From an uncultured Lachnospiraceae bacterium (GTDB lineage Bacteria; Bacillota; Clostridia; Lachnospirales; Lachnospiraceae), in NCBI GenBank assembly GCA_947177445.1, contig CAMWUL010000001.1, forward strand, positions 1-64,000: a stretch of DNA of 64,000 bases. The letters run 5' to 3'. Of this stretch, positions 3,702 to 19,556 are shown in pieces. The translations under genes and the position numbers were made by a program. Position 1 is the first letter of the stretch, and each line of letters begins with the position of its first letter. The notes beneath the pieces are model-generated. The model was given only the letters and a program-made list of their open reading frames with translations, did not search any database and was not told where the DNA came from.

Positions 3702-3712
3702 AGGGTATGTGC

Positions 3713-4846
3713 ATGGAAATAGACATGAGAATTCTCGCTATTGTGTTATTTGCCGGAATTATATTTGTGTGCGTCCTGCTGATTCTGCTGATTTCCACCG
3801 TCCATATATGTGATGTCAGCAGGGGAAAAAAGAGACGCAGAATGCCGGATACAAGAGAAATTGTATTCGATGTGGATGAAGATGAGGCAGAGGATAATGC
3901 GGAAGATGATGAGACAGAAGGCATTGAGACAGAAGACGTTGAAGCAGAAGGCATTGAGATAGAAGAGATTGAAGTAGAAGAGATTGAAGTAGAAGAGATT
4001 GAGACAGAATATGTGGAAGCGGATGACATGGATGCAGAAGATACTGATAGAGGGAATGGTGATTTGCTGTTGGAGTCTGAAAGTGATATAGAACAGAAGG
4101 AAGAAGGGGAGCTGCCAGTCATAGAGGTTCGCAATGTGACCATGAAATTTAAGGTTTCCACAAGCAGTACATCGGGCCTGAAGGACTACATGATTCAAAG
4201 AATCAAAAAGCAGCTTACGACCCGGGATTTATTGGCGTTGGACAATGTAAGCTTTGAGGTTTACAAAGGAGAGGTGGTCGGAATTATCGGCACAAACGGC
4301 TCCGGAAAATCCACGCTGTTAAAGATTGTATCCGGGGCGCTGGAGCCCACCTCCGGTCAGGTAAAGGTAGATAAAAAAAAGATACAGCTTTTGACCCTGG
4401 GAGCAGGCTTTGACACAGAGCTTTCAGCAAGGGAAAATGTATATTTAAACGGTGCGATTATTGGATACTCAAGAGAATTTATTGACAAGCATTATTCGGA
4501 GATTGTGGATTTCGCCGAACTGGAAGGCTTTATGGATGAAAAAGTAAAAAATTTTTCCAGCGGTATGGTAAGCAGACTGGGATTTTCCATTGCTACCGCC
4601 GGAGACGCTGCGGAAATCCTGATTTTAGATGAGGTCTTGAGCGTGGGGGACGAATTTTTTCGAAAGAAAAGTCTGGCCAGAATTAAAGAGATGATCCATG
4701 GAGGCAGCACTGTATTGATGGTGTCACATGGAATGGGGACGATTCTTTCTAACTGCACCAAGGTGGTCTGGATCGAAAAGGGAAGACTGCAGATGGTGGG
4801 AGAAGCGAAGGAAGTATGTGGGGCATATCGCAAGCAGTTTGATTGA
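3713..4846 (+). CDS. Wzt/TagH-type ABC transporter ATPase with N-terminal membrane anchor and acidic repeat
   Basis: This is the ATPase partner of the upstream permease, energising export of a surface polysaccharide. The ABC domain (about 136-377) has Walker A GTNGSGKST (193-201), the family-typical signature FSSGM (281-285), Walker B ILILDE and the H-loop histidine (339). It lacks the C-terminal glycan-binding domain of long Wzt proteins. Unusually, the N-terminus has a transmembrane helix (about 7-29), a basic stop-transfer cluster (GKKRRR) and about 60 residues of Glu-rich repeats (EIEVEE units). The chosen start ATG 3713 has GAGGG seven bases upstream; ATG 3707 is an alternative. Exporter ATPases are normally soluble subunits, so the tether is noteworthy. 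Confidence 0.85.
   Translation: MEIDMRILAIVLFAGIIFVCVLLILLISTVHICDVSRGKKRRRMPDTREIVFDVDEDEAEDNAEDDETEGIETEDVEAEGIEIEEIEVEEIEVEEIETEYVEADDMDAEDTDRGNGDLLLESESDIEQKEEGELPVIEVRNVTMKFKVSTSSTSGLKDYMIQRIKKQLTTRDLLALDNVSFEVYKGEVVGIIGTNGSGKSTLLKIVSGALEPTSGQVKVDKKKIQLLTLGAGFDTELSARENVYLNGAIIGYSREFIDKHYSEIVDFAELEGFMDEKVKNFSSGMVSRLGFSIATAGDAAEILILDEVLSVGDEFFRKKSLARIKEMIHGGSTVLMVSHGMGTILSNCTKVVWIEKGRLQMVGEAKEVCGAYRKQFD
3880..4060 (+). repeat. Glu-rich codon repeat inside the ATPase gene
   Basis: Short imperfect repeats of 15-30 bp (GAAGTAGAAGAGATT and relatives) encode the acidic spacer between membrane helix and ATPase domain. Two exact tandem 15-bp copies lie near 3968-3997. All units keep the frame, so recombination would change spacer length only. 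Confidence 0.7.
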
Positions 4847-4921
4847 AGAAAAGTACTGATAAGATGTTATATTAAGGAATGTTTTCAGAAAATTGAGCAT
4901 AAAGCACAAGGAGTAACAGTC

Positions 4922-5917
4922 ATGGAAAATGAAATGGAAAAAGTTTTATTGTGTACTATCAATAATAATGAACATCTGGGGCAGATCCTTTCGACATATG
5001 CTCTACATGTGACTTTACAGAATCTAGGATATTGTCCGGTAGTTTTTGATGATCTATATCGGATGAATACAGTTACTTCAAAGTATATAAAAGAGCGATG
5101 CTGTTTGTTTTCAGATATGTGCATACATAATAGTAAGGAGAAGTATCTTGATACCTTTAATTATTTACTTACAGGAGCAGAAAAAAAATGGAAATATACC
5201 GAAAAGGAGTCTATGGATCAGTGTTTTCTGAACTTCGGGAAAGAAGATGCGCGAAAAATTGCTTATGCGCCGAGTTTTGGAAAGAGGTGTGATATTCCAT
5301 TAGGACCCAAAAACGCGGCGATCTTTGCTTTGAAAAGATTTGACGGAATATCTGTAGAGGATAATAACACACTACGCATTTTGAATATGGAATTTGGAAT
5401 TGACGCTGAAAAGGTATGCAGTCCGCTTTTTTTGGTTGAAGACTATCCTCATTTTGACAGGGAGGAAATAGAAGGATTATTTATATCCGTTTTCTTTGAA
5501 GATCGTGACAACCAAAAGCAAAAGGTTGTCGAAATGTCAGAGGAAATTCTTCAATATCGGATAATTGATTTATCTAAAGATATTGAAGATCATTTGGATA
5601 GTTCAATTGATGTGTTTTTGAATGCATTAGAAAAAGGAGCATTGATTATTACTGATTCCATAGCGTTTGCTCATATGGCAGTTATTTATAAAAAACCATT
5701 TATTTTGATTACGTCTCGACTGGGAGACGCTGCTGGAACCTTATCTGGTTTGGAAAGTCTTGGACTGATGGAAAGAGTCATTTACATAGAGGATGATGTT
5801 TGTGAAAAAAAGTATCTTTGCAGAAAGCCGATTCGGTATGGTTTGGTAGATTATAAACTGATGGAACTACGTTCTAAATCAATTCAATGGTTGGAAGAAA
5901 AACTGAAAAAGGAATAA
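4922..5917 (+). CDS. Degenerate polysaccharide pyruvyltransferase-like protein
   Basis: The 331-residue product aligns by eye with the pyruvyltransferase-like half of the fusion gene at 7864: LGQILSTYALHVTLQNLGY near the start, IAYAPSFGK in the middle, a YKKPFILI block and a KSIQWLEEKLKK tail. However, the family hallmark TDSFHG is replaced by TDSIAFAH, so the histidine is lost from its usual place, and the GSDQxW block is missing. It may be a catalytically dead paralogue or have another activity. The start ATG 4922 follows an AAGGAGT site. It is the first gene of the AT-rich cassette, and its base composition clearly differs from the ABC genes before it. Confidence 0.6.
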   Translation: MENEMEKVLLCTINNNEHLGQILSTYALHVTLQNLGYCPVVFDDLYRMNTVTSKYIKERCCLFSDMCIHNSKEKYLDTFNYLLTGAEKKWKYTEKESMDQCFLNFGKEDARKIAYAPSFGKRCDIPLGPKNAAIFALKRFDGISVEDNNTLRILNMEFGIDAEKVCSPLFLVEDYPHFDREEIEGLFISVFFEDRDNQKQKVVEMSEEILQYRIIDLSKDIEDHLDSSIDVFLNALEKGALIITDSIAFAHMAVIYKKPFILITSRLGDAAGTLSGLESLGLMERVIYIEDDVCEKKYLCRKPIRYGLVDYKLMELRSKSIQWLEEKLKKE

Positions 5918-5953
5918 AAGATTTCAGAATAGAACCGCAATATGGAGGAAAAC

Positions 5954-7777
5954 ATGGATAGAGTAGTCAAATTACAAAATTTGCTATTTCCGAAGTTAGA
6001 TATGAAACAGCATTTCTGGATGTTTTGTAGAGGGGAACAGTTAACTCACAATAAAATAGAGTCGGCTTATTGTCTGGAGGAAGATAAATATACAGAATTT
6101 TTTACATATTTTAATGCTTTTTCTCTGGAAAAATGGAAAAAATATACACAGATTGAGCATGCTTTTTTAAGCTTATCAGTAAAAGGAAAGTTTGGTGTTC
6201 AAATGTTTGGACACTATATGAATGGAAATGATATCGAAAAAGAGATCATTTCAGAAAATTACTTCGAATTAGAAGCGAAAGAGACGATTTTAATACCGAT
6301 TCCTATGGATTCAAAAAGCCAGGTGGTTTCCTTTCAGATCTTTGCTTATGGTAATTTGTCAATTTATGAGGGAAGCTATGTGGCGGCTATTCAAGCTGAG
6401 AATTTGAGGGAAGTTAATTTGTCCTTGGTGACAGTCACTTATAAAAAGGAAGACTTCATTACCAGAAATTTGCAGCTTTTGGAAAATGAAATTATTTATT
6501 CAGGTGAGGATATTGCAGATCATATTTTTGTCAGAGTAATCGACAATGGGCGGACGTTGAAGGCAGACGAGTGGAATAGTGAAAGAATTCATATATACCA
6601 GAACCCCAATGCCGGAGGGGCCGGAGGGTATTCCAGGGGTATGATGGAGACGCTCTTTGACAATGAATTCTCTGCGACACATGCACTTTTGATGGATGAT
6701 GATGTTAAGATTCTTCCAGAAAGCATTATCAGGACATATAATCTTCTGCGTTGCCTGAAGCCAGAGTATCAGGATCATTTTATCAGTGGGGCAATGCTTT
6801 ATTATGAGCGGATGCATATTCAGCATGAGGACGTTGGGTTTGTCAGCAGTGATGGGACCTATGGGCCCAGAAAGCCTGTTATGGAAATGCACTTAGCGCA
6901 GTCTGTTATACGTAATGAGAAAATATATGAAGACATGCCTAATAATTATGCCGGATGGTGGTATTGCTGCATTCCCCGTACTAAGATGGATAAGAACAGG
7001 CTGGTGCTTCCTCTATTTATCAGAGGAGATGATGTAGAGTTTTCCATTGCAAACAATGCTAAATTTATTACTATGAATGGTATTTGTATATGGCATATGG
7101 GTTTTGCTGCTAAATTTAATATGGCTATGGAGTTTTATCAAGTTCACAGAAATAGTCTGATTATTCAGGCGGTGAGCGGCGTAACTCCTGAGGTTGACTT
7201 TAATGATCGAATATCCAAAATGTTTTTTACAGAGCTGAACCGTTTTAATTATATTGGATGTGATCTTTTGCTTGATGCAATAGAAGATTATCTAAAAGGA
7301 CCAGAATTCATCATGCATTTGTCAGGGGAGGAAATAATTGTAAAACAATCGGCAAGAGCAGAAAAAATGATAGATTTAAATCAGAATTTTTCAAGGATTA
7401 CGGTGGATATTTCTCAAATTTATCAAAGCGAAAGCAAATTGAAGGGGTTACGCAAAATTTTGTACAAGAGAACCTATAATGGACATCTTCTTCCAACATT
7501 TATGTTGAAAAAGGCGCCAGGAGTTATAGCATATGATTGGTTTGATGCACCGGAAAAGCAATATCTTAGAGAATCTGTTCTGGCAGTAAATCCTCATGAC
7601 TTAACGGGAATTTTGCGTTATCGATCTCGGAGAGAATTTTTAAGATTGATGAAACGATATCATTCATTGAACCGGAGATATATGAAAAATAAAAATATCG
7701 TGAAAAAAAATTATGCAGAAGCGAAGAAAAAGCTTATCGGACAGGAATTCTGGCAGGAGTATCTGAAAATTGAATGA
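5954..7777 (+). CDS. GlfT2-like galactofuranosyltransferase (GT2 family)
   Basis: This cytoplasmic, membrane-associated glycosyltransferase of 607 residues resembles mycobacterial GlfT2. It has an N-terminal beta-rich region, a GT-A fold with NAGGAGGYSRG (GGAGGY at 221-226), the metal-binding DDD (248-250), a GWWYCC block, then a FIRGDDVEFS block and WHMGF. GlfT2 polymerises galactofuranose from UDP-Galf; the mutase that makes UDP-Galf is encoded at 18438. ATG 5954 is preferred because GGAGG lies five bases before it, whereas ATG 5942 overlaps that site and has none of its own. The C-terminus (about 430-607) is basic and poorly conserved. The acceptor and the linkage cannot be read from sequence. 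Confidence 0.8.
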   Translation: MDRVVKLQNLLFPKLDMKQHFWMFCRGEQLTHNKIESAYCLEEDKYTEFFTYFNAFSLEKWKKYTQIEHAFLSLSVKGKFGVQMFGHYMNGNDIEKEIISENYFELEAKETILIPIPMDSKSQVVSFQIFAYGNLSIYEGSYVAAIQAENLREVNLSLVTVTYKKEDFITRNLQLLENEIIYSGEDIADHIFVRVIDNGRTLKADEWNSERIHIYQNPNAGGAGGYSRGMMETLFDNEFSATHALLMDDDVKILPESIIRTYNLLRCLKPEYQDHFISGAMLYYERMHIQHEDVGFVSSDGTYGPRKPVMEMHLAQSVIRNEKIYEDMPNNYAGWWYCCIPRTKMDKNRLVLPLFIRGDDVEFSIANNAKFITMNGICIWHMGFAAKFNMAMEFYQVHRNSLIIQAVSGVTPEVDFNDRISKMFFTELNRFNYIGCDLLLDAIEDYLKGPEFIMHLSGEEIIVKQSARAEKMIDLNQNFSRITVDISQIYQSESKLKGLRKILYKRTYNGHLLPTFMLKKAPGVIAYDWFDAPEKQYLRESVLAVNPHDLTGILRYRSRREFLRLMKRYHSLNRRYMKNKNIVKKNYAEAKKKLIGQEFWQEYLKIE

Positions 7778-7863
7778 AAATAGAATGAAGATTGTCTATC
7801 TGGCAGAAAATGCAGTTATCCTGTTTATAGTATAATAGCTATTTGGGTACGAGGAGGTTTATA

Positions 7864-10719
7864 ATGAAAAAGAACCAAAATTATGATGTTGGAATATATG
7901 GATTATGGTATGGTCATAATTATGGAAGTATTATAACTTACTATGCATTGAATAATGTTATAAATTCCATGGGCTATTCGACTGTAATGATAAAAAATCC
8001 CTTGGGATCAAATGTAGATGTGTCAATGTTGAGAAGATCACATCCTTTGAGATTTGCTCATAAACACTATGAGATCACGCCATTATTGCGTATCTCTGAA
8101 ATGGAAAAATTGAATCAGATTTGTGACAGATTTCTGCTGGGATCAGATCAGATGTGGAATTATGGTTTAAGCCGGCCATATCAGCAGTCTTATTTTTTTA
8201 ACTTTGTTCAAGAAGAAAAGATTAAAGTTGCATATGCCACTTCCTTTGGAAGAGAAAAATATGATGCCCCAAAAGAGTATAAAAGAGAAGTAAAGAAGAA
8301 TTTGGATAGATTTACTGCCATTTCAGTACGGGATGATTTTTCTAAAGAAATATGTGAAAAAGAATTTCAGCTGTATGCAGAACAGGTAATTGATCCTGTC
8401 TTTTTATGTGATAAGAACAATTATATCGAATTAATGGGAGAAGCAGAAAGAAAATATAAAAACTTTATTTTTGCATATATTTTGGATCCAGGAACGGAGT
8501 GGGGAAAAGTAATTGAGAATTTGTCAAAAAAGACAGGAAAGAAAATTATTGTAATATTTAATGAGGGAAGTGATAAACAGGAAGCGATAAACAGATTGGG
8601 TATAATTGATACTTCAGTGGAATTTTTTACGGACGCCAATATATATGAATGGCTTTACTGTTTTAAGCACTCTGATTTTGTTATTACAGATTCTTTTCAT
8701 GGAATATGCTTTTCAACAATTTTCCATAAGCCTTTTATCGTTTTAAGAAATAATGGAAGAGGCGGCAGGCGATTCGACTGCCTGCTGGATATTATAGGAC
8801 TGAAAGCCCAGATGGTCACGGAGGTTTATCAAGTAATCGACGCATTTGATAAATTATGTTCAACAGAAATAGATTATCAGCGGGTTGACGCACAAATAGA
8901 GGTTCATCGGCAAAAGGGGATGAGATGGCTGGAAAATGCGCTAAAAGGGAAAAGTCAGATTGTTAGATTAGAGAAAAAAAATTTGGATGAAGTTAACAAA
9001 GATCCGGAAAAATCGGGAATGAAAAAAAATTCAGAGTCTGTCAGTGGACAATCTGATATGCAGAAAAACACAGTAGCTTCCACACAGGTAAGGCTTCATC
9101 CAGATATTGAGAGGGCACGAATGCTGGTTTCTCTTTTAAAGGCTTATGGATATAGTAAAGTGATTATTTCATCTGGAACGCGTGATTTGTCATTGGCCAG
9201 AATAATTGAGAACAATTCTTTTTTTGAAGTTTATTTAGTTACAGATGAAAGGAGCGCGGCCTATTTTGCGCTTGGTCTTTCCGTTAAGACAGAACAGCCC
9301 GTTGTCATAATGTGTACTTCTGGAACGGCAGTTTCAAATTACTTGCCCGGAGTGACAGAAGCATATTATCAAAAAGTTCCAATTATAATAATCACAGGTG
9401 ATCGATATTCGTATTACATAGGACAGATGGAACCACAAATGATTAAACAATACGGATTATTCAGAGATGTATGTAAATTAAACATAAATTTAGATATAGA
9501 AGATACACAACGTTGCAAATGGTCAAATTACAGAAAAATATGTGAAGCACTTTTGGAAGTGAATCACCATGGAAAAGGGCCGGTTCATATTAATTTTCCT
9601 ATAGACATCGTTGAACATAATCCGCCAGATCCTGTTACATACGTTTTACCTAAATATGAAAAAATTGAAAGAGTAGATTTTTATTCAGGACGATGTGTAT
9701 GGGAAGGATATGAAAAACAACTTCGTATGGCACGACGAATTATGGTAATTTGTGGACAGAATCAACCGTGGTCACAAGAAAGTAGAAAGTGGTTTAATCT
9801 GTTTACTGAAAAATATAATTGCGTAGTTTTGACGGATCACCTTTCCAATATTTCCGGGAAATATTGTTTAAATCCATATCGATTACTCAAAAATTGGTCA
9901 AATGACCAGTTTAAAAAAAATTTGATGCCTGATATATGCATTTATGTTGGAGGGAAAAGAACATTGAACGATCCTTTGTCTGCAAAAATGCGTTCGATTA
10001 GCCGTAGGATTCAATTTTGGCATGTAACAGATGATGGTATGATTGCGGATATGTATTATAAGCTTACCCACATATTTGAATGTATGCCGGAACAATTTTT
10101 TCGATTTTTTGCAGAAGCAGCAGGAGAGATACACAATGATGGAGAATATTGTGAACAATGGAAAGTAAATGCGGCAACAATTCCACCGGTTGATTTTTCA
10201 AAAATTCGGTTTACTTCTTTTTATACTATGGGGAAAATTGCTGTGAATTTGCCACAAAATTCCATGTTGCATCTTGGTGTGGGAAATACATTTATTAATA
10301 TAGAAAATTTCCCGATAGATGAAAGTATTACAGTTTATTGTAATATGGGAACTAACGGGATAGACGGAAGTGCTTCATCCTTCATTGGACAATGTATGGC
10401 AGGAGAACAGAAAGGTTTTCTGGTAATCGGAGACTTAAGCTTTTTCTATGATATGAATTCCATATGGAATAAAAAACTAAATGGAAATGTCAGAATCATT
10501 TTGCAAAATGATAGTGGTGCAGGACTTTTGGCTCATTATCAAAGTCCATCTATAACTCAAGAGCACAATGCCGTAGCGGAAGGATGGGTAAAAACATGTG
10601 GCTTTAAATATATGTGCGCAAGAGATGCAGAAGAATTTGATGCTCAGTTGGACGATTTTTTGAACGGAGAAAGTGAAAAACCCGTGTTCTTTGAAGTGTT
10701 TACATTACGCAGTAACTAA
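7864..10719 (+). CDS. Fusion: polysaccharide pyruvyltransferase-like domain + MenD-like ThDP-dependent enzyme
   Basis: The start ATG 7864 follows GAGGAGG, giving 951 residues. Residues about 5-340 are a pyruvyltransferase-like domain with family motifs intact (NYGSI near 20, GSDQMW at 93-98, TDSFHG at 275-280). A Lys/Ser-rich linker (about 365-405) leads to a complete MenD-like domain: DER at 461-463 including the ThDP-activating Glu, CTSGTAVSNYLP, NMGTNGIDGS and the cofactor motif GDLSFFYDMN (856 on). MenD adds a decarboxylated 2-oxoglutarate to isochorismate. No other menaquinone gene is nearby, and the family residues around the second substrate look different, so a new 2-oxoacid-derived decoration of the glycan is more likely (inference). 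A TATAAT box at 7831-7836 hints at its own promoter. Confidence 0.8.
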   Translation: MKKNQNYDVGIYGLWYGHNYGSIITYYALNNVINSMGYSTVMIKNPLGSNVDVSMLRRSHPLRFAHKHYEITPLLRISEMEKLNQICDRFLLGSDQMWNYGLSRPYQQSYFFNFVQEEKIKVAYATSFGREKYDAPKEYKREVKKNLDRFTAISVRDDFSKEICEKEFQLYAEQVIDPVFLCDKNNYIELMGEAERKYKNFIFAYILDPGTEWGKVIENLSKKTGKKIIVIFNEGSDKQEAINRLGIIDTSVEFFTDANIYEWLYCFKHSDFVITDSFHGICFSTIFHKPFIVLRNNGRGGRRFDCLLDIIGLKAQMVTEVYQVIDAFDKLCSTEIDYQRVDAQIEVHRQKGMRWLENALKGKSQIVRLEKKNLDEVNKDPEKSGMKKNSESVSGQSDMQKNTVASTQVRLHPDIERARMLVSLLKAYGYSKVIISSGTRDLSLARIIENNSFFEVYLVTDERSAAYFALGLSVKTEQPVVIMCTSGTAVSNYLPGVTEAYYQKVPIIIITGDRYSYYIGQMEPQMIKQYGLFRDVCKLNINLDIEDTQRCKWSNYRKICEALLEVNHHGKGPVHINFPIDIVEHNPPDPVTYVLPKYEKIERVDFYSGRCVWEGYEKQLRMARRIMVICGQNQPWSQESRKWFNLFTEKYNCVVLTDHLSNISGKYCLNPYRLLKNWSNDQFKKNLMPDICIYVGGKRTLNDPLSAKMRSISRRIQFWHVTDDGMIADMYYKLTHIFECMPEQFFRFFAEAAGEIHNDGEYCEQWKVNAATIPPVDFSKIRFTSFYTMGKIAVNLPQNSMLHLGVGNTFINIENFPIDESITVYCNMGTNGIDGSASSFIGQCMAGEQKGFLVIGDLSFFYDMNSIWNKKLNGNVRIILQNDSGAGLLAHYQSPSITQEHNAVAEGWVKTCGFKYMCARDAEEFDAQLDDFLNGESEKPVFFEVFTLRSN

Positions 10720-10728
10720 AAACATGCG

Positions 10729-10761
10729 CTTTCTTAGGCCAAAGCATCTGGCCTAAGAAAG
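10729..10761 (+). terminator. Perfect 12-bp stem-loop between the MenD fusion and the DUF6270 gene
   Basis: The arms CTTTCTTAGGCC (10729-10740) and GGCCTAAGAAAG (10750-10761) pair perfectly around a 9-base loop. No T-run follows, so this is not a canonical terminator. It could attenuate, protect or process the mRNA. The right arm shares GCCTAAGAAA with the mutS-mutL hairpin at 33202-33261. Confidence 0.55.
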
Positions 10762-10788
10762 ATTCGACGTTTGTGGATGAGGTGAAAA

Positions 10789-11996
10789 ATGGTTTCATTT
10801 AATATATTAGGCGATTGTGTGTCAAGAGACATATTGAATCCTCTTGGGGGGGGGTAAAAGTTCTGCAATATCATGCCTTTTCAAGTCCGATATCATTATT
10901 TTCACCCAAAGGGATGATAGATATTCAGCTGGCTGATTTTATAGGAAAAAATGAAACAATCAGTGCGTTTACAAAAAGATGCACAATGTGTGACTTCAAT
11001 AAATCTATGTTAGATTTTGTTTTCAAAAAGAAATCAGATTATTTCATCTTGGATATTTTAGATGCAAGGCTAAAATTGATGAAGCATGATGAACATATTT
11101 TTACAAAAAATATATTTATGCAATTAGATGATTTCCCGCATCATTTGGGTTTAAATGAATATGAAGAATTAAATCCATTTACAGACATAAGTGAAGAACA
11201 ATGGGAAGACAGTATCGATAAGCTGACAGAACATATACAACGACATTATACTCCCGCCCAGATCATTATACCATTGCATTATGGAGTAAAAGAATATATA
11301 AAAGATTTTGTGCTGAAGAAGTTTGTATTATGGAGAAAGGATTACACCAATGCATTTAATCCGCTTGTAAAAAAATTATTTAAAAGGATAATTAATAATT
11401 TGGACGGATGTCATGTAATTGAGTTTCCGGATAATGTAGTGGCAGATGCAGGGCATAAATGGGGATTGAGTCCATTGCATTATAATAAAATCTATTATGA
11501 ATATGCGGCAGAGGCTGTTAAAGTAATTCTTCGCAGTTTATCTGATCATGAAGAAAAAGGAGAGTTGGAGAAATTAAAGTCTTTGTATTCTGAGCGCTTT
11601 GAGATGTTGCACACAAAAGAGGAACTTAATGCTTTAAAGAGGAAACTTACCAGCTGTAATTCTGCTCTTGAATTTGCGAAAGCACATGCCTTTGACTGCT
11701 ATGAAAGCAAAATGCTAGAGAAATGGTTAATGTTAAATAAAGGAAAAAGGATTGCTGTATTAAAATGCCAGGATGTCGCAGGGCAGATTTTGCTAAAGGG
11801 CTTAGAAAAATATGGATTTAATATTATTTTTTCAACAAGTAATAGTAATTTTGAAAAGCTGACAGAAGAAGAGATGAAACTTTGTAAAGAAGCTGACATA
11901 GTGGTATCTGCAGATATTCATTCCAATATTCTGCCGGAGCATGACTCGGTAAAAGTTATACGCATTAATGAGTTGCTGGAAAATGCAAATCAATAG
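10789..11996 (+). CDS. DUF6270-like protein, frame broken at a nine-G tract (candidate phase-variable gene)
   Basis: ATG 10789 follows a GAGGTG site and reads MVSFNILGDCVSRDILNPLGGG, then TAA. GDCVSRD matches the (G)SCVSRD block that opens DUF6270 proteins. The rest of the protein (VKVLQYHAFSSPISLFSPKG onward) lies in another frame that has no credible start of its own. The break falls exactly at nine consecutive G (10846-10854). One more G, or two fewer, joins both parts into about 402 residues. The C-terminal part includes a Rossmann-like segment (KGKRIAVLKCQDVAGQILLKGLEKYGF). Family function is unknown; members occur in surface-polysaccharide loci. As sequenced the gene is OFF, unless this is a homopolymer read error. 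Confidence 0.75.
10846..10854 (+). repeat. Poly-G tract (G9) that sets the reading frame
   Basis: Nine G in an otherwise AT-rich region, within codons 20-22 of the DUF6270-like gene. Such tracts change length by slipped-strand mispairing and act as ON/OFF switches in other bacteria. Here G9 gives a stop directly after the tract, while G10 or G7 would be in frame. Confidence 0.9.
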
Positions 11997-12027
11997 ATTG
12001 TGGGATGCCATAAGGAGGAGATGGATT

Positions 12028-13047
12028 TTGACAGGATATCGAGTTTGGTTTGTTCAAAAGGAGAAAGCTATTTTACAAACATTTAAGGTCAGGGATCCTA
12101 AACCTGATGAAGTACAGGTAAAGGTAGACTTTACACTTATTTCAGCAGGAACGGAAAAGGCATACTTGTCGGGATCCAATAATACCGCAGGCAAGTTTCC
12201 AACATGTCCGGGATATTCGAGCGTAGGAACCATTATTGGGACTGGTGCTAATGTTGTAAATTATAAAGAAGGGGACAGGGTTTTTGTAGCCTACGGCGGA
12301 CATGGAAGCTATAATATTGTCAGTCATAAAAAGTGCACGCTGATACCAGATAGGGTTTCCTTTGAGGAAGCCGTTTTTACAAGACTTGCCGGATTTCCAT
12401 TATTAGCACTTAGAAGATCAAGAATTGAAATGGGAGAATCTGTTGTTGTTGTGGGACTGGGCATGCTGGGTCTGTTTGCTGTTCAATTAGCAAGATTGTA
12501 TGCTATCCCTTTAATTGCAGTCGGGAACCGTGAAATAAGAAGACAGAAAGCTTTAAAATTTGGGGCAGAATATGTTTTTGCGCCCGATGAGCCGAACTTA
12601 TCACAGAATATTCAAGATATAATCAAAATGAAAACAGGGCGAATGGGGGGGGCAGATGTTATTATAGAAACATCAGGCCAAATTGATGCTCTAAACTCTT
12701 GTTTGACATATACGGCCAGATTAGGGCGTGTTATGCTCAGTGGATGTAATAGAGTTACAGACAAACCAATAGATTTGTACAAATATATTCATTATAAAGG
12801 CGTAGAACTAATAGGAGCTCATGATGGCACCAGAACACGATATAATTCTGCACCTTTTCGATGGACGGCTCAAAGAGACTATAATACAATTTTGAAATTT
12901 TTAGAGGATGGACGGCTTAATGCAAAAGATATGCTGAGTGAGATTGTCAGCCCTGCTGAAACGACTTTGATATATAATAGATTGCTATATGAAAGAGATT
13001 TTCCATTGGGGGTTGTGTTTGACTGGCGGGAATTTCACGATAATTAA
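12028..13047 (+). CDS. Zinc-type medium-chain alcohol dehydrogenase-like oxidoreductase
   Basis: The MDR-family product has 339 residues. An N-terminal GroES-like domain includes FTLISAGTEKAYLSG and GYSSVGTIIGTG. A Rossmann domain with VVVVGLGMLGLFAVQLAR is followed by GGADVIIETSG and GAHDGTR. The canonical catalytic zinc Cys and GHE motif are not obvious, as in bacterial MDR relatives of sorbitol/threonine dehydrogenase in biosynthetic loci. TTG 12028 is chosen because AAGGAGG ends nine bases before it; the frame is open further upstream but has no ribosome site. It lies 31 bases after the DUF6270-like gene and is probably co-transcribed. It may oxidise or reduce a sugar or the MenD-like product (inference). 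Confidence 0.75.
   Translation: MTGYRVWFVQKEKAILQTFKVRDPKPDEVQVKVDFTLISAGTEKAYLSGSNNTAGKFPTCPGYSSVGTIIGTGANVVNYKEGDRVFVAYGGHGSYNIVSHKKCTLIPDRVSFEEAVFTRLAGFPLLALRRSRIEMGESVVVVGLGMLGLFAVQLARLYAIPLIAVGNREIRRQKALKFGAEYVFAPDEPNLSQNIQDIIKMKTGRMGGADVIIETSGQIDALNSCLTYTARLGRVMLSGCNRVTDKPIDLYKYIHYKGVELIGAHDGTRTRYNSAPFRWTAQRDYNTILKFLEDGRLNAKDMLSEIVSPAETTLIYNRLLYERDFPLGVVFDWREFHDN
12645..12652 (+). repeat. In-frame poly-G tract (G8) in the dehydrogenase gene
   Basis: Eight consecutive G code for the Met-Gly-Gly-Ala junction of the conserved GGADV block. The gene is in frame at this length; loss or gain of one G would truncate it. This is the second-longest G run noticed in the window and lies 1.8 kb from the G9 tract. 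Confidence 0.85.
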
Positions 13048-13079
13048 TTTATTTACTCCTGGAGCAATCGTATAACAAG

Positions 13080-14408
13080 GTGGAAAGCCTTCCTGCCCTA
13101 TTACAAATGAAAACAGAGGTGATAACAATTAGTAATATAGGAGCTTCCCCAAAGATAACTATCGTTGTCCCGGCGTACAATGTAGAGGCATATCTGGAGC
13201 AGTGCCTGAACAGTCTGCTGAATCAAACAGAACGAAATTATAAGGTAATCATTGTAGACGACGGTTCCACGGATGATACTGCATGCATATGTAAAAAATA
13301 TATTTCCGAAGCAGGGGATATGTTTAGGTATGTATATCAGGAGAACAAAGGCTTGGGGGCCGTCCGAAACAAAGGGCTGTCTCTGGTGGAGACGCCATAT
13401 ACGGCGTTTCTTGACAGTGACGATTGGCAGGATATCCGCTTTGTGGAGAAATTCGAGGCATTTGTGGAGCGTCTGGATTTTGTCCCTGATATGATATTTA
13501 CCCTGCCCAGGTGCTATAATGAAGCGTCGCATCTTCTGGAAGACTGGATGGACAAGCCCCTGTATGATGAGATATTTATGACCGGAGCCGGAAATGAAAT
13601 CAAGAATCTGAATGCGTCCATTTGTCCAAAATTATATTTATTGGAGGTAAATGCCAACCGCAAGATTTATCGGACGGCTTTTTTAAAGGAAAATGGATTT
13701 TCTTTTCCGGAGGGTGTGAAATGGGAGGATATAAGGCCTCATATTCAGCTGGTGCATCTGGCTAAAAGCTGTGTTGCTTTACCCGGAACCGGTTTTATCT
13801 ATCGGATGAATCGTGCAGGGCAGATTACGGCAGGAACAGGTAAAGGACGATTGGATATTCTGAAGGTTTTTGAGGATGTACTGGACGGAATATACAACGG
13901 ATACCAGGCTTCATCCGGCGGTCTGCCTTCGGCGGCATTCGAAGGAAAAGAGCTGTCTGCAATAATGCACTTGATCTGTAATTACACGATCTGGATGATC
14001 GAAATGACAAATATGGAATATATTCAGGCCTTGCTGGAGGGATTGCACGAGGTATTTGTACATATTTCGGAGAAAATGATCTCTGCATATTCCGAAGATT
14101 CTGAGCCCTTGTCAGGAAAAGCAGCTGCGATGGATGATTCCGCAGAAACTGGCCGCTGGCTTTTGGCGGAAAGAAATAAGCGGATCGGGTTGATCCGCTG
14201 TCTCAGGGGGAGGGACTGGAGTCAGCTGCTGTGCTACGAGGATAGAAAAAATCTGTATCGGTATTGGTCTGTTAACGGTGGGAAAAGGAAAAATCTGATC
14301 AGCGGCGGGATCCAATGTATTAGAGACAGCGGGGTGAAATATACGGTAAAGCTGTTGTTTCGAAAGGCTTTTTATGCCGCAGAAAATTTTCTGGCAAAGA
14401 GACGCTGA
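13080..14408 (+). CDS. GT2-family glycosyltransferase
   Basis: The 442-residue product starts with a GT-A nucleotide-sugar domain: ITIVVPAYNVEAYLEQCLNSLLNQT, VDDGSTDDT, NKGLGAVRNKGL and the DxD-type FLDSDDW. A C-terminal helical extension of about 200 residues follows. It is most like teichoic-acid or capsule GT2 enzymes that add one sugar to a membrane-linked acceptor in the cytoplasm. The start is uncertain: GTG 13080 gives the full frame, while ATG 13107 and GTG 13119 are alternatives lying just before the conserved domain. Base composition returns here to that of the wider chromosome, so this gene marks the right edge of the AT-rich cassette. Confidence 0.8.
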   Translation: MESLPALLQMKTEVITISNIGASPKITIVVPAYNVEAYLEQCLNSLLNQTERNYKVIIVDDGSTDDTACICKKYISEAGDMFRYVYQENKGLGAVRNKGLSLVETPYTAFLDSDDWQDIRFVEKFEAFVERLDFVPDMIFTLPRCYNEASHLLEDWMDKPLYDEIFMTGAGNEIKNLNASICPKLYLLEVNANRKIYRTAFLKENGFSFPEGVKWEDIRPHIQLVHLAKSCVALPGTGFIYRMNRAGQITAGTGKGRLDILKVFEDVLDGIYNGYQASSGGLPSAAFEGKELSAIMHLICNYTIWMIEMTNMEYIQALLEGLHEVFVHISEKMISAYSEDSEPLSGKAAAMDDSAETGRWLLAERNKRIGLIRCLRGRDWSQLLCYEDRKNLYRYWSVNGGKRKNLISGGIQCIRDSGVKYTVKLLFRKAFYAAENFLAKRR

Positions 14409-14440
14409 GAGGAGGCCTGCCTGGATAAAGGGGGATACAA

Positions 14441-15859
14441 ATGGAAGAACTGGAATTGTTTTTGGCGTCTCTGCAGATAGACAAAGCGGCCATTTTAGTG
14501 GGGGATTGCGGACCGGAGCGGCTTGAAGAATTATTTCGGTATGTCAATTTAAAGCAATGCTGTGTAGTATGTCCATGGCCGGCAAGGGATATGGAAATAC
14601 TGGAGGAAAGGATTCGTAATGACGCAGCCAGGGGGCTTTTTTCACTGCCGGAGGAGCTGGTTTTTCTGCCCTGTTATCGATTTGGCGGCATGGAAGGGGT
14701 ATGGGCTTTCTGTCCCATACGATGTAAAGGAGCGGACCTTCTGCCGATTTTGAATTATGCTCCCCAGTATTTGGCGGGCTCAATTTTAGAGGGAGAGGTA
14801 AGTGCCTTTCATATCTGGGAGCAGTGCAGAACCTTTTCCCGGGAGGTCAATTTAAAGACCTGGAGAGAGGGCAGGAGTCCCGTTGTCTTGGATTGGAAGA
14901 AGGGATGCGAAGGTGGGAAGGAGCTGAGTGTAATTTTCCCGGTTTACAATGTGGCTCCGTATCTGGAAAGGTGTCTGAAGAGTGTTACCGCATGGAAGGC
15001 GGAGTATCTGGAATTTATCTTTGTCAGCGACGGCTCAAAGGATCATTCTGTAAATATCATCAAAAAGTGGATGGAGCAGGACTCCCGGATCCGGTTGATT
15101 GAGAAGGAAAACGGCGGTTGTGCGTCGGCCCGCCAGATGGGTCTGGAGAATGCTTCAGGCCGATATGTGGGCTTTGTTGATCCGGATGATTTTATTGATG
15201 AGAATATGTACCGAAAGCTGCTGCGGGCGGCTATGTGCGGCTGCTTTGATGTGAGTCTGTGCGGATATAACGAGTATTATGAAAATACGGGAAGGATTCA
15301 TGCGGCAGAGGACTCGCTGTGGTATCCCTATATCGATGGCTGCTATGATGAGGATAAGATCCGTGAGCTGATTACTTACTGCCGGGTGGCTATCTGGAGA
15401 GGCATTTATCGTAAAGAGTGGCTGGAGAAAAACAGGATTGGATTTTATACGGATTTGAAGCGGTTTGACGATTTGCCGTTTAAGGTGGAAACCTTTGCCT
15501 GTGCAAAATCAGTGGTTATGGTTCCGGAGTATCTGTATTATTACAGGCTGGAGAGGGAAGGGCAGGATGTGTCCGCTGACGATGAACGTCTTTATGTTCA
15601 TTTTGACATTTTTGCGCATCTGGATCGTTTTGTCGGGAAATCCCAAAATCAAAAGCTGATCGACAATCTTCAGATGTGCAAGATCCAGACCCATAGATAC
15701 GCTCTCTCAAAGATCAGGACAGAATACCGGGAGGAATATTTGCGGCGGGCACGAACGGATCTGAATTATTTATGTGATTTTCAGCGTACCTGTAAGATAG
15801 CCAATATGATGCTTGGCAGCGAAACGGCAGACGAATACCGAAAAATCATGCAGGGATAA
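14441..15859 (+). CDS. GT2-family glycosyltransferase with an unassigned N-terminal domain
   Basis: Of 472 residues, the first 150 or so form a domain not recognised here (MEELELFLASLQIDKAAILV, with VCPWPARDMEILEERI). The GT2 domain then begins with LSVIFPVYNVAPYLERCLKS and carries FVSDGSKDHS, ENGGCASARQMGLENASG and FVDPDDFID. The start ATG 14441 is preceded by an AAGGGGG site. The gene lies between another GT2 and a GlfT2-like gene in the same direction, so it probably acts on the same glycan. The N-terminal part could be an acceptor-recognition or partner-binding module (inference). Confidence 0.8.
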   Translation: MEELELFLASLQIDKAAILVGDCGPERLEELFRYVNLKQCCVVCPWPARDMEILEERIRNDAARGLFSLPEELVFLPCYRFGGMEGVWAFCPIRCKGADLLPILNYAPQYLAGSILEGEVSAFHIWEQCRTFSREVNLKTWREGRSPVVLDWKKGCEGGKELSVIFPVYNVAPYLERCLKSVTAWKAEYLEFIFVSDGSKDHSVNIIKKWMEQDSRIRLIEKENGGCASARQMGLENASGRYVGFVDPDDFIDENMYRKLLRAAMCGCFDVSLCGYNEYYENTGRIHAAEDSLWYPYIDGCYDEDKIRELITYCRVAIWRGIYRKEWLEKNRIGFYTDLKRFDDLPFKVETFACAKSVVMVPEYLYYYRLEREGQDVSADDERLYVHFDIFAHLDRFVGKSQNQKLIDNLQMCKIQTHRYALSKIRTEYREEYLRRARTDLNYLCDFQRTCKIANMMLGSETADEYRKIMQG

Positions 15860-15896
15860 CGCCGTTTGTGTTAATTCGTCGGGATGTGCAGGGGTA

Positions 15897-16982
15897 ATGA
15901 GCAAAAGCAGGAAAAGAAGGCAGAAATGCATTGAGGATTATCAGAAAAACAGCGGCGGACAGAAAAACAGAGTGTGCATCGCGGTGAATATTTGCACCTA
16001 CAGACGGGAGGAACAGCTGAACCGGATTTTGGATAAGCTGCAGGGATCGGCCTTTTTTGACCAGACAAAGAAGACGGATTATTCAGGGGCGTTGTACATA
16101 TATGTTGTGGATAATGCCTGTGAGCTTTCGGAAATCAGGTCGGAATATGTGAATCTGAGACATAATCCCAGAGGAAATACGGGCGGGGCGGGAGGCTATC
16201 AGTATGGGATCGAGCTGATCCGTTCGGCGCAGGCAGAGTTTACGCATGTGGTGTTTATGGACGACGATGTGGAATTTGATTTGTGCTGTTTTTACAGGCT
16301 TTTTGATTTTCTGCAGCAGGTTAAAGGAGCGGATGCCTTCAGGCCGGTAGCCGGAAGGATGTTTCGAATGGACCGGCGGAATATTCAATATACGGCAGGG
16401 GAAATATGGAATGCAGGCAAGATATCTCATGTTGGCTTTAACAGGACCGCAGCAGAAGTGGATCAGGAGCCGGAGATTATATGCGATTCAGGGGCGGAGT
16501 ATGGGGGATGGTGGTTTTGCTGCTTCCCCTATGATTTTGTAAAGGAAAATGACATTATGCCCTTTTTTATTCATTGCGATGATGTAGAATATGGATTGAG
16601 GTACGGCAGACCGCCTGTTATAATCCGGGATGTCAAGGTCTGGCATGAAACCTTTGAATACAGACAGACTCCGGTTATGCGCTATTATGACACCAGAAAT
16701 CCGTTGTTTGTAAATGAAAAATATCAGCTGAATAAGGATGCGTCTCAGATATTGAGTGAGTGGAAGCAGGAAATATCCGCTTACCATGCGGATGGAAAGT
16801 GGGATTATGAATATTATGTAATCCGGGGAATGCTGGACTATTTGAAGGGTATGAAATGGCTGTATCGGATCCACCCGGGGAAATATCATGATAAGCTGAA
16901 GAAAGCCAGGACCAGCAGGTATAAAAATGCAATATTATGGAGGATTGCCGAGCGGCGTTTCAGGAGAAGATATGAGGTGTGA
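15897..16982 (+). CDS. Second GlfT2-like galactofuranosyltransferase
   Basis: The 361-residue product has NICTYRREEQLNRILDKL, GNTGGAGGYQYG (GGAGGY 96-101), FMDDDVEFD (DDD 122-124), YGGWWFCCFP, FFIHCDDVEYGLR and VWHETF. These are the blocks that define the catalytic core of GlfT2-like galactofuranosyltransferases. It lacks the long N- and C-terminal extensions of the relative at 5954. ATG 15897 is chosen, with an AGGGG site close before it; the frame is open back to 15813 inside the upstream gene. With glf at 18438 it supports a galactofuranose-containing product. The two GlfT2-like enzymes may divide initiation and extension, as GlfT1 and GlfT2 do in mycobacteria (inference). Confidence 0.85.
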   Translation: MSKSRKRRQKCIEDYQKNSGGQKNRVCIAVNICTYRREEQLNRILDKLQGSAFFDQTKKTDYSGALYIYVVDNACELSEIRSEYVNLRHNPRGNTGGAGGYQYGIELIRSAQAEFTHVVFMDDDVEFDLCCFYRLFDFLQQVKGADAFRPVAGRMFRMDRRNIQYTAGEIWNAGKISHVGFNRTAAEVDQEPEIICDSGAEYGGWWFCCFPYDFVKENDIMPFFIHCDDVEYGLRYGRPPVIIRDVKVWHETFEYRQTPVMRYYDTRNPLFVNEKYQLNKDASQILSEWKQEISAYHADGKWDYEYYVIRGMLDYLKGMKWLYRIHPGKYHDKLKKARTSRYKNAILWRIAERRFRRRYEV

Positions 16983-17021
16983 ATAACCATGCCGCAATGG
17001 GCTAAAATATTCAATATAAAC

Positions 17022-17050
17022 TTGCGAAACCATTTTCCTTGGTATATAAT
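17022..17050 (+). promoter_or_regulatory. Sigma-A-type promoter for the DUF4143 ATPase gene
   Basis: TTGCGA (17022-17027) and TATAAT (17045-17050) are separated by 17 bases and lie about 50 bases before the ATG at 17102. This gives the ATPase gene its own promoter inside the polysaccharide locus. Confidence 0.65.
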
Positions 17051-17101
17051 GAATGCATGTTACAGGCTTTACGAGCAAAATTGTCCGGCGGGGTGGTGTA
17101 T

Positions 17102-18391
17102 ATGGAAATAAAGCGTGACAGCTATTTGAAGCAGTTAATTTCATATCGCTTTGACGGTCTGGTCAAGGTTATAACAGGCATTCGCCGTTGCGGAAAATCC
17201 TACCTTCTGACGAAAATATACAGAGATTATCTTATTCAAAACGGTGTAAAAAATGAACAGATTATTTTGATTGAGCTTGATCTTGTCAAAGACATTAAGT
17301 TTCGAAATCCTTTGCTGCTTTCTTCTTTTGTAAGGGAAAGGGTGGAGAGCAGACAGGAGGAATTCTATTTATTTATTGATGAAATACAAATGTCGGATCA
17401 GGTTGCCAATCCATATAATCCCTATGGTGAGAAAATTACATTTTATGATGCATTAAATGATCTTCGAAGCCTGACGAATTTGGATATATATGTGACAGGA
17501 AGTAATTCAAAGATGCTGTCAAGCGATATTTTGACGCAGTTCAGAGGAAGAAGTGATGAGATTCGTGTTCATCCGCTCAGCTTCGCGGAATATTATTCTG
17601 CTGTCGGCGGGGATAAGAATGAAGCTTTTGATGAGTATGCTTTTTATGGTGGAATGCCGCTGATTTTATCCAGGCCAAATGACGCTGCAAAGATGAATTA
17701 CTTAAAAACGCTTTTTACAGAGGTTTATATAAAGGATATTGTGGAGCGAAAGAAAATTGAACGGCAGGATGTCCTGGAGCAGATTTTGGATTTATTGTGT
17801 TCCTCTATCGGTTCGCTGACAAACCCATCCAAAATAGCGGATACCTTGAATTCTAAACAGATAAAAGGTGTTTCTTCCAACACAATTCGAGCATATATCG
17901 GACATTTGGAGGATGCATTCCTTTTTTCGGAAGGCAAACGCTACGATGTAAAAGGAAAAGCATACTTTGATTCACCGCTTAAGTTTTACTGCGAGGATAT
18001 AGGACTGCGGAATGCGCGTATTGGATTCCGACAGCAGGAAATGACGCATATTATGGAAAATATTATCTATAATGAGTTGATCAATCGTCAGTTTTCTGTT
18101 GATGTGGGGGTAGTGTATGCCAGAGCCCTGAATCAGAATGGAAATTCTGTGCGCGTACCCAGAGAAATTGATTTTGTTGTTACTTCCGGCGGCAAAAGGA
18201 CTTATATTCAATCGGCATATGCAATATCAACGGCGGAAAAAGCAGAAATGGAGCTTAGGCCGTTTGCCCTTATCGGAGATTCGTTTCCGAAGATTGTAGT
18301 ACGCAAGGATATTGGCAAACGCTGGTATGATGATAAGGGAATTTTGAATATTGGTTTACTTGATTTTCTCTTGGACAAAGAATTAATATAA
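17102..18391 (+). CDS. AAA-family ATPase with DUF4143 domain
   Basis: The 429-residue protein has Walker A GIRRCGKSYLL, Walker B FYLFIDEIQ, the sensor-like TGSNSKML and RGRSDEIRVHPLSFAEY block of AAA_14 proteins, and the C-terminal DUF4143 region (SNTIRAYIGHLEDAFLFSE, with a nuclease-like EIDFVV block near the end). These ATPases are common in gut bacteria; their role is not established. ATG 17102 is chosen as the start; the frame continues upstream to 17039 without a good ribosome site. With its own promoter and no glycan-related domain it looks like an independent insertion into the polysaccharide locus. Confidence 0.85.
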   Translation: MEIKRDSYLKQLISYRFDGLVKVITGIRRCGKSYLLTKIYRDYLIQNGVKNEQIILIELDLVKDIKFRNPLLLSSFVRERVESRQEEFYLFIDEIQMSDQVANPYNPYGEKITFYDALNDLRSLTNLDIYVTGSNSKMLSSDILTQFRGRSDEIRVHPLSFAEYYSAVGGDKNEAFDEYAFYGGMPLILSRPNDAAKMNYLKTLFTEVYIKDIVERKKIERQDVLEQILDLLCSSIGSLTNPSKIADTLNSKQIKGVSSNTIRAYIGHLEDAFLFSEGKRYDVKGKAYFDSPLKFYCEDIGLRNARIGFRQQEMTHIMENIIYNELINRQFSVDVGVVYARALNQNGNSVRVPREIDFVVTSGGKRTYIQSAYAISTAEKAEMELRPFALIGDSFPKIVVRKDIGKRWYDDKGILNIGLLDFLLDKELI

Positions 18392-18437
18392 TGAGGGGCG
18401 GAGTCATTCCCGTACAGATATAAAGGAGACGGATGAT

Positions 18438-19556
18438 ATGAAGTATGATTATTTGATCGTAGGTGCAGGTTTATACGGCGCTGTGTTTGCACAGCAGGCA
18501 AAGCAGGCAGGGAAGCGGGTTCTGGTGATTGATAAGAGGTCCCATGCCGCAGGGAATGTTTATACGAAAAATGTGGAAGGAATTCAGGTGCACCAGTATG
18601 GAGCACACATTTTTCATACGAATCTGACCAGAGTATGGGAGTATGTCAACCAGTTTGCCGGCTTCAACCGTTTTACCAATTCTCCTGTGGCCAACTATAA
18701 GGGGGAATTGTATTCTCTTCCCTTTAATATGTATACCTTTAACAAAATGTGGGGGGTGGTGACGCCCGCCGAGGCGGAGGCAATGATCGAGGAGCAGAGG
18801 AAGTCGGCGGGGATCACCAATCCCAGAAATCTGGAGGAGCAGGCTATTTCCCTGGTGGGAATCGATATTTATGAAAAGCTAATAAAAGGATATACGGAGA
18901 AGCAATGGGGAAGGCCCTGTGATCAGCTTCCCGCGTTTATTATCAAAAGGCTGCCCGTGAGACTGACCTTTGACAATAATTATTTTAATGCCCTGTATCA
19001 GGGAATCCCTGTGGGGGGATATACCCGGATGGTGGAAAATATGCTGGAGGGTGTGGAGGTACGTCTGGAAACGGATTATCTGAAGCAGAAGGATGCGCTG
19101 GACGCGCTGGCGGATCGGGTGATTTACACAGGGCCTGTGGACGCTTATTTTGGCTATTCTCTGGGAGCTTTGGAGTATCGTTCTGTCCGGTTTGAGACAG
19201 AGGTTTTGGACCAGCCGAATTTCCAGGGGAATGCGGCGGTAAATTACACGGATGCCGAGACGCCCTGGACCCGTATTATTGAGCATAAATGGTTTGAATT
19301 CGGAAAGGACCGGGAGGGGAATGAGATTCCCAGGACGGTGATCAGCCGGGAATACAGCTCGGAGTGGAAGCCGGGGGACGAGCCTTATTATCCGGTGAAT
19401 GACGAGAAAAACGGAAAGAGGTATCAGGAATATAAGGCGCTGGCGGAGCGGGAGAAAAAGGTGGTTTTCGGAGGCCGTCTGGGAGAATACAAATATTATG
19501 ATATGGACGCGGTTATTGCCAGCGCACTGGATATGGCGGCGAGGGAGCTTTCGTGA
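18438..19556 (+). CDS. glf: UDP-galactopyranose mutase
   Basis: This cytoplasmic flavoenzyme interconverts UDP-galactopyranose and UDP-galactofuranose, the donor for Galf polymers. The N-terminus has the FAD-binding Rossmann motif VGAGLYGAVFAQQAKQAG followed by DKRSHAAGN. The characteristic HQYGAHIFHT, the GYTEKQWGR block and the C-terminal GRLGEYKYYDMD are all present. At 372 residues it has the usual bacterial length. ATG 18438 lies 8 bases after AAGGAGA. Together with the two GlfT2-like genes it defines the sugar chemistry of this locus. Confidence 0.96.
   Translation: MKYDYLIVGAGLYGAVFAQQAKQAGKRVLVIDKRSHAAGNVYTKNVEGIQVHQYGAHIFHTNLTRVWEYVNQFAGFNRFTNSPVANYKGELYSLPFNMYTFNKMWGVVTPAEAEAMIEEQRKSAGITNPRNLEEQAISLVGIDIYEKLIKGYTEKQWGRPCDQLPAFIIKRLPVRLTFDNNYFNALYQGIPVGGYTRMVENMLEGVEVRLETDYLKQKDALDALADRVIYTGPVDAYFGYSLGALEYRSVRFETEVLDQPNFQGNAAVNYTDAETPWTRIIEHKWFEFGKDREGNEIPRTVISREYSSEWKPGDEPYYPVNDEKNGKRYQEYKALAEREKKVVFGGRLGEYKYYDMDAVIASALDMAARELS

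Follow-up and report, generated by a model that had tools for sequence, protein, structure and literature searches.

We examined a tract of nine G, a candidate phase-variable locus, in a 64-kb stretch of DNA from an uncultured Lachnospiraceae bacterium (hereafter the window, meaning the whole stretch analysed). The most likely reading is that the tract serves a surface-polysaccharide gene as a slippage contingency site and that Lachnospiraceae have several such sites. The initial annotation had proposed phase variation at this gene, and the proposal gained support from the reading registers of its relatives, from split genes of surface-glycan type elsewhere in the genus, and from promoters that carry poly-G tracts. 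Slippage as the cause of the frame break, its reversibility and a surface phenotype are what we infer from these comparisons.

The reading frame and product of the DUF6270 gene

An ATG at 10789, a GDCVSRD block behind it and a TAA straight after nine G had been described, and the sequence and frames agree with this description. The frame from ATG 10789 reads MVSFNILGDCVSRDILNPLGGG and then meets the stop TAA 10855-10857, which adjoins the G9 tract. The rest of the gene, as had also been stated, is open in a different frame and runs to 11996. The features of the locus are as follows.

10729-10761: hairpin separating the upstream gene from the DUF6270 gene, terminator-like on the minus strand only
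10779-10785, plus strand: ribosome-binding site GAGGTGA ahead of ATG 10789 (read from the sequence)
10789-10857, plus strand: short opening frame of 22 codons, including the GDCVSRD block, then TAA (sequence; relatives' profile)
10846-10854, plus strand: G9 tract, the proposed slippage site (sequence)
10815-11996, plus strand: DUF6270 body, 393 codons and stop, in a frame that differs from that of ATG 10789 (Pfam PF19786; relatives; structure model)
1686-19556, plus strand: surface-polysaccharide cluster around the DUF6270 gene (Pfam)

The tract occupies codons 20-22, in the 5' part of the coding region, and the first start codon in the body frame, which gives 393 aa, is TTG 10815. In the state found in the window, translation would end right after the tract, and the GDCVSRD block would be severed from the body. 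A profile built from the window body and 14 relatives was compared with the genome, and the two pieces of the gene were recovered separately: 10789-10860 in the ATG frame matched profile positions 1-26 (E 3e-4), and 10815-11978 in the body frame matched positions 9-401. The ribosome site, start block and body are intact, the frame break falls exactly at the tract, and no second lesion was seen, as the initial annotation had held.

Its argument from tract length fared less well. A G9 had been called very unlikely by chance in such AT-rich DNA, but the window is not strongly AT-rich (G+C, 46.6%), and a G9 was present in 61 of 100 dinucleotide shuffles of it (mean, 1.35). Because so many shuffles hold a G9, the length of the tract is in itself no evidence; the evidence lies in its placement. 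A neighbouring alcohol-dehydrogenase-like gene (MGGADV), which is intact, contains a run of eight G at 12645-12652 that may be a second slippage site.

The assignment to DUF6270 was confirmed by a match of the body to Pfam PF19786 (E 2e-28) that covers the profile from position 12 through its last position, with a score of 100.1 bits against a gathering cut-off of 27.5. No paper naming DUF6270 was found in the literature search. The structure model of the relative P0003 (mean pLDDT, 91) has SGNH/GDSL matches over model residues 1-258, and thus the fold of the SGNH/GDSL hydrolase superfamily. DUF6270 is thereby modelled as an SGNH-type hydrolase/acyltransferase, with an SGNH-like N-terminal domain and a C-terminal alpha/beta part. 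SGNH block I reads GDC, GCC or GTC instead of GDS. A late His, a candidate for that of block V (Asp-x-x-His), is invariant across the 16-row alignment, and the Asp three residues ahead of it is missing in P0005, P0006, P0008, P0009, P0010 and P0012. The protein is probably an O-acyl transferase or esterase of the SGNH type, an enzyme activity predicted from the model.

By Pfam, the surrounding cluster contains an ABC-2 exporter with its ATPase, a GlfT2-like galactofuranosyltransferase, GT2 glycosyltransferases and a UDP-galactopyranose mutase. Pyruvyl-transferase domains are found at 7843-10719 (strong) and at 4922-5917 (slightly under the Pfam cut-off). At 7843-10719 the pyruvyl-transferase domain and a thiamine-pyrophosphate enzyme are joined in a single frame, and an AAA_14/DUF4143 gene lies inside the cluster at 17039-18391.

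Relatives of the gene at the tract site

Relatives were collected by a search of 5.8 billion proteins, which gave 15 at E 0.001, and by a profile search, which gave at least 38 at E 1e-20 among the 7,994 candidates listed. Two named relatives of the protein are from Lachnospiraceae and Acetatifactor. P0002 is 97% identical, stands for 56 sequences and comes from contigs of other sources (lgn and ena). It starts MGGGVKVLQ, that is, at the tract, and its body is open. Taken together with the flanks of the window, this protein start implies a register of eleven G, and the start is only possible at TTG 10844, because TGA 10835-10837 closes that frame upstream. In P0004 (51% identical), the DNA of the first residues can spell CVSRDII when the frame is shifted; the protein thus points to a GDCVSRD block out of frame, with the break at the same spot as the window tract. 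As a chance control, we counted how often a frame-shifted reading of the window could give CVSRD: only 49 of its 103,344 six-residue stretches qualified. P0015 (40% identical) starts three residues ahead of GGGVQVLQY and is without the GDCVSRD block; to judge from this start, it is probably out of frame at the same spot.

In five other relatives (P0003, P0005, P0008, P0017 and P0035) the frame is kept, with GDCVSRD present and GGV at the site; intact copies therefore exist in relatives. The annotated start of P0026 is late, yet its DNA (L020) is open further upstream; since this shows that gene callers err, P0007 and P0009, which also start late, were left out of the count of out-of-frame relatives. 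At about 97% identity, where both known states (the window and P0002) are out of frame, no in-frame copy was found.

Among 138 genomes of the genus, a clear orthologue was present in the window's own genome only, and three more genomes gave weak matches (25-29% identical). A single-protein query of genome contigs returned no close orthologue with DNA. An alignment query of the genome contigs returned five distant orthologues (L020-L024), of which L024 lies on CANDMD010000062.1 from an uncultured Lachnospiraceae bacterium; no G run was found at the tract site in the four distant orthologues L020-L023. The viral contigs yielded no orthologue.

These comparisons bear on the possibility that the gene is a plain pseudogene, which has suffered one homopolymer frameshift and is heading for loss. 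Decay of this kind would suit a gene that is rare in the genus and out of frame in both states of its species. However, the body of about 390 codons carries no other lesion in the window and is open in P0002 too; P0004, and probably P0015, break at the very spot where several relatives are in frame; and the same anatomy is met in unrelated genes of the genus, as described below. We therefore hold simple decay to be decidedly unlikely, and a contingency site remains the preferred reading of the tract.

Poly-G tracts in other genes and promoters

The search for G9 in the 138 genomes of the genus gave a match in 79, with counts per genome that were very uneven. Fifteen genomes were picked because their counts were high, and they yielded 73 distinct tracts of 10 G or more; 62 were fetched and 60 were scored (L085-L144), two at contig ends being left out. 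A second sample consisted of the first 30 loci listed in the genus G9 search, one per genome, and 22 of these are G9.

Open frames at the tracts were scanned with Pfam. The 40 frames (36 from the fetched stretches and four from three loci of the genus G9 search) were picked as long- or split-looking rather than drawn at random, and 31 of them had a Pfam match. Acyl_transf_3 was found at five loci; the other matches were to glycosyltransferases, pyruvyl transferases, FrhB-like proteins, two DNA methylases, two AraC regulators, LysM and Ig-like surface proteins, one flagellin and others. Three genes are split at G9 or G10 tracts, and in each the Pfam matches before and after the tract do not share a frame. 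In L115, Acyl_transf_3 (PF01757) is matched at profile positions 2-155 and 152-323 on either side of the tract; in L037, the same family is matched at 2-60 (weakly, E 3e-4) and 68-316; and in L113, an FrhB N domain is followed by the tract and then by an FrhB C domain. By their sequences these three share the anatomy of the window gene. L116 and L127 were not counted as splits because the second piece had no Pfam match, and frames that run through the tract in phase also exist, such as that of L095 (GT2). At L129 2480 (G123:C30), a G10 tract has a flagellin N-terminal domain upstream and an 868-codon frame without Pfam match downstream, possibly a phase-variable giant flagellin. Tracts of G12 at L106 2502 (G080:C4) and G11 at L144 4262 (G130:C8) lie at the ends of DNA methylase frames, which makes phase-variable methyltransferases possible at these two loci.

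Some tracts lie in promoters. A promoter-like pair was defined as a -35-like hexamer with at least 5/6 identity to TTGACA and a -10-like hexamer with at least 4/6 identity that abuts the tract, at a gap of 15-22 bases. Such a pair was present at 14 of the 60 G10+ tracts, 12 of them with exact TTGACA and TAnnnT. None was present in the controls (0/262 G5, 0/33 G6 and 0/12 G7-8 runs, and 0/60 on the opposite strand); the difference between 14/60 and 0/295 for G5-G6 runs is significant (p 4e-12). Of the 13 genomes that contributed scored tracts, six hold these 14, and G123 alone has six of the 14; one (L114) lies inside a pyruvyl-transferase frame, where the likeness to a promoter may be fortuitous. 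In the second sample, the test was passed by only 1/30 (L036), and therefore the promoter class is strong in some genomes and not everywhere.

The dinucleotide TA directly follows 37 of the 60 G10+ tracts, against 16 of 262 G5 runs, and it follows 12 of the 30 tracts of the second sample. The excess of TA is also present at tracts without a recognisable -35, so promoters account for part of it only. Short inverted repeats just upstream were seen at 7/60 G10+ tracts and 7/262 G5 runs (p 0.007).

A TA follows the window tract as well (TAAAAG), and it might be asked whether this tract, like the intergenic ones, is a promoter spacer that happens to lie inside a gene. Apart from the TA, which it shares with the 37 tracts, no promoter-like pair was called there, the hexamer ahead of it looks weak by eye, and the broken frame would still have to be explained separately; the chance that this is so appears to us extremely remote. 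The window tract is better read as a coding slippage site.

Four tracts of at least nine G were found in the window's own genome, a 3.63-Mb draft in 123 contigs that is 87% complete: two of promoter type, the window tract, and one (L005) at a contig end in low-complexity sequence. At C85:6381 (L003, 1485-1516), TTGACA is followed by a 20-base spacer with G10, by TAAAAT and then by a gene starting MKCFNHPEREAVATCQ, labelled zinc-finger-like by eye. At C26:2771, on the minus strand, TTGACT is followed by a 19-base spacer with G9, by TATAAT and then by a gene that is GGDEF-like by eye. The C85 query had matches in six other genomes. Ahead of the same gene, G105, G059 and G132 carry 9, 8 and 10 G in spacers of 17, 16 and 20 bases, and across four species of the genus (L003, L156, L157 and L158) the C85-type promoter holds 10, 9, 8 and 10 G. 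The C85 tract thus lies between -35 and -10 and varies in length among orthologues, as in a promoter-spacer switch. The start of the C85 gene is present in G057, where no G or C run reaches six, and a second match to it in the window's own genome (C72) has no run over six. G058 (G7) and G123 (G10) have the C85-type promoter ahead of other genes. The C26 promoter gave only weak matches in the genus (G036, G046 and G063), and L180, from another genus, resembles it, with G10 ahead of a similar gene.

An assembly or sequencing error, with the true tract in frame and the gene intact, is conceivable in a draft of this completeness and contig number, where another G9 sits in low complexity at a contig end, and some platforms miscount homopolymers. 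Against an error, P0002, from its other sources, is out of frame at this spot in another register; promoter tracts of like kind differ in length among orthologues; and in several genomes tracts of 10-14 G are found well away from contig ends. We judge an error to be unlikely. It is also conceivable that RNA polymerase slippage or ribosomal frameshifting through the tract gives a steady low level of full protein and no heritable switch. Long homopolymers can cause transcript slippage, and a stop directly after the tract is found at some recoding sites, but read-through leaves unexplained both the variation of tract length among orthologues and the poly-G promoter spacers, where coding frame is irrelevant. 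This explanation is very improbable, and heritable change of tract length is preferred.

The promoter class extends beyond the genus. In 397 genomes of the family, the string GGGGGGGGTATAAT occurred 28 times (in 23 genomes, own included) and the backwards string once (p 1e-7); within the genus the counts were 10 and 1 (p 0.01). Outside the own genome there are 27 family loci (L164-L190); they were chosen on GGGGGGGGTATAAT alone and have G8+ tracts abutting TATAAT. A TTGACA-like box stood at 14-20 bases in 20 of the 27 and was lacking in seven, compared with 25/546 shifted windows, and exact TTGACA was found in 10/27 versus 0/546. A downstream gene was called by rule at 15 of these loci; by simple text rules, a lipobox was present in 5/15 of the genes versus 0/44 background genes, and a signal-like N terminus in 8/15 versus 9/44. 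Across 299 genomes of the phylum, GGGGGGGGTATAAT occurred eight times and the control once. Since only 1/7 of the phylum loci outside the own genome had a TTGACA-like box, our claim for the promoter class does not go beyond Lachnospiraceae. The proportion of genomes with GGGGGGGGTATAAT was 22/396 in the family and 7/298 in the phylum (p 0.05).

Given these findings, it is likely that Lachnospiraceae, which are dominant gut commensals, possess a poly-G phasome on a par with those of Campylobacter or Neisseria, composed of coding tracts and sigma-A promoter spacers. On the coding side, it would include O-acyltransferase, glycosyltransferase, pyruvyl-transferase, DUF6270, flagellin and DNA-methylase genes; on the promoter side, a G-tract spacer abutting the -10 would drive lipoproteins and secreted proteins, among others. 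The single pass among the 30 loci of the second sample makes this family-wide reading slightly less probable.

Proposed mechanism and comparison with known systems

In the proposed mechanism, the length of the tract would change in replication and with it the reading frame of the DUF6270 gene; therefore, cells of one population would differ in making the protein. The protein probably decorates a galactofuranose-containing polysaccharide exported by the ABC system, and with such a role the switch would toggle a cell-surface substituent. The locus would be a member of a wider Lachnospiraceae poly-G set that acts also via promoter spacers.

The phasomes of Campylobacter, Helicobacter and Neisseria comprise glycan-modifying, surface and DNA-methylase genes, and these classes are also found at tracts in the present genus. 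In switches of the Neisseria porA/opc type, a homopolymer lies between -35 and -10, and its length sets the spacing and hence the promoter strength. The Lachnospiraceae G tract likewise sits between -35 and -10; unlike porA/opc, it abuts the -10 of sigma-A-like promoters, some of which precede genes for lipoproteins or secreted proteins. Among gut commensals, the known cases of surface switching are mainly DNA inversions in Bacteroidota.

Many repeat tracts per genome, putatively length-switched in the present case, are a likeness to the poly-G phasomes of Campylobacter, Helicobacter and Neisseria, as far as these are described in the accessible parts of PMC6321876, PMC2823697 and PMC5084427. 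Those organisms are Proteobacteria and Campylobacterota, whereas the present case is from Bacillota. The accessible part of PMC9187656 describes a sortase-pilus locus of Bifidobacterium breve UCC2003, in which a G tract lies between two pilin-gene ORFs and replication slippage gives ON and OFF states. That system too belongs to a Gram-positive gut commensal and has a G tract that parts two ORFs, but it concerns Actinobacteria and a pilin, with slippage measured by maximum depth sequencing (PMC9187656, same part), whereas ours is a polysaccharide-cluster gene of Lachnospiraceae with putative slippage. The same part of PMC9187656 cites gsmA of Mycoplasma agalactiae, a gene required for a cell-surface polysaccharide, with a G tract in its coding sequence; the likeness is a G tract in a surface-polysaccharide gene, and gsmA differs in belonging to a mycoplasma and concerning a glucan. 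A search of mainly open-access journal papers turned up no title that dealt with phase variation by homopolymers in Lachnospiraceae, and the accessible part of PMC13317340 contains nothing on the subject. The kind of mechanism is already known; neither a Lachnospiraceae example of it nor the recurrent poly-G spacer of promoters appeared in the literature found.

Gut Bacillota face phages, IgA and rival strains. If the proposed switching is true, a single strain would be a mixture of surface types, of which an isolate genome captures one phase, and some genes annotated as broken would be switched off, not dead. These gut commensals probably toggle surface features by DNA slippage, like some pathogens.
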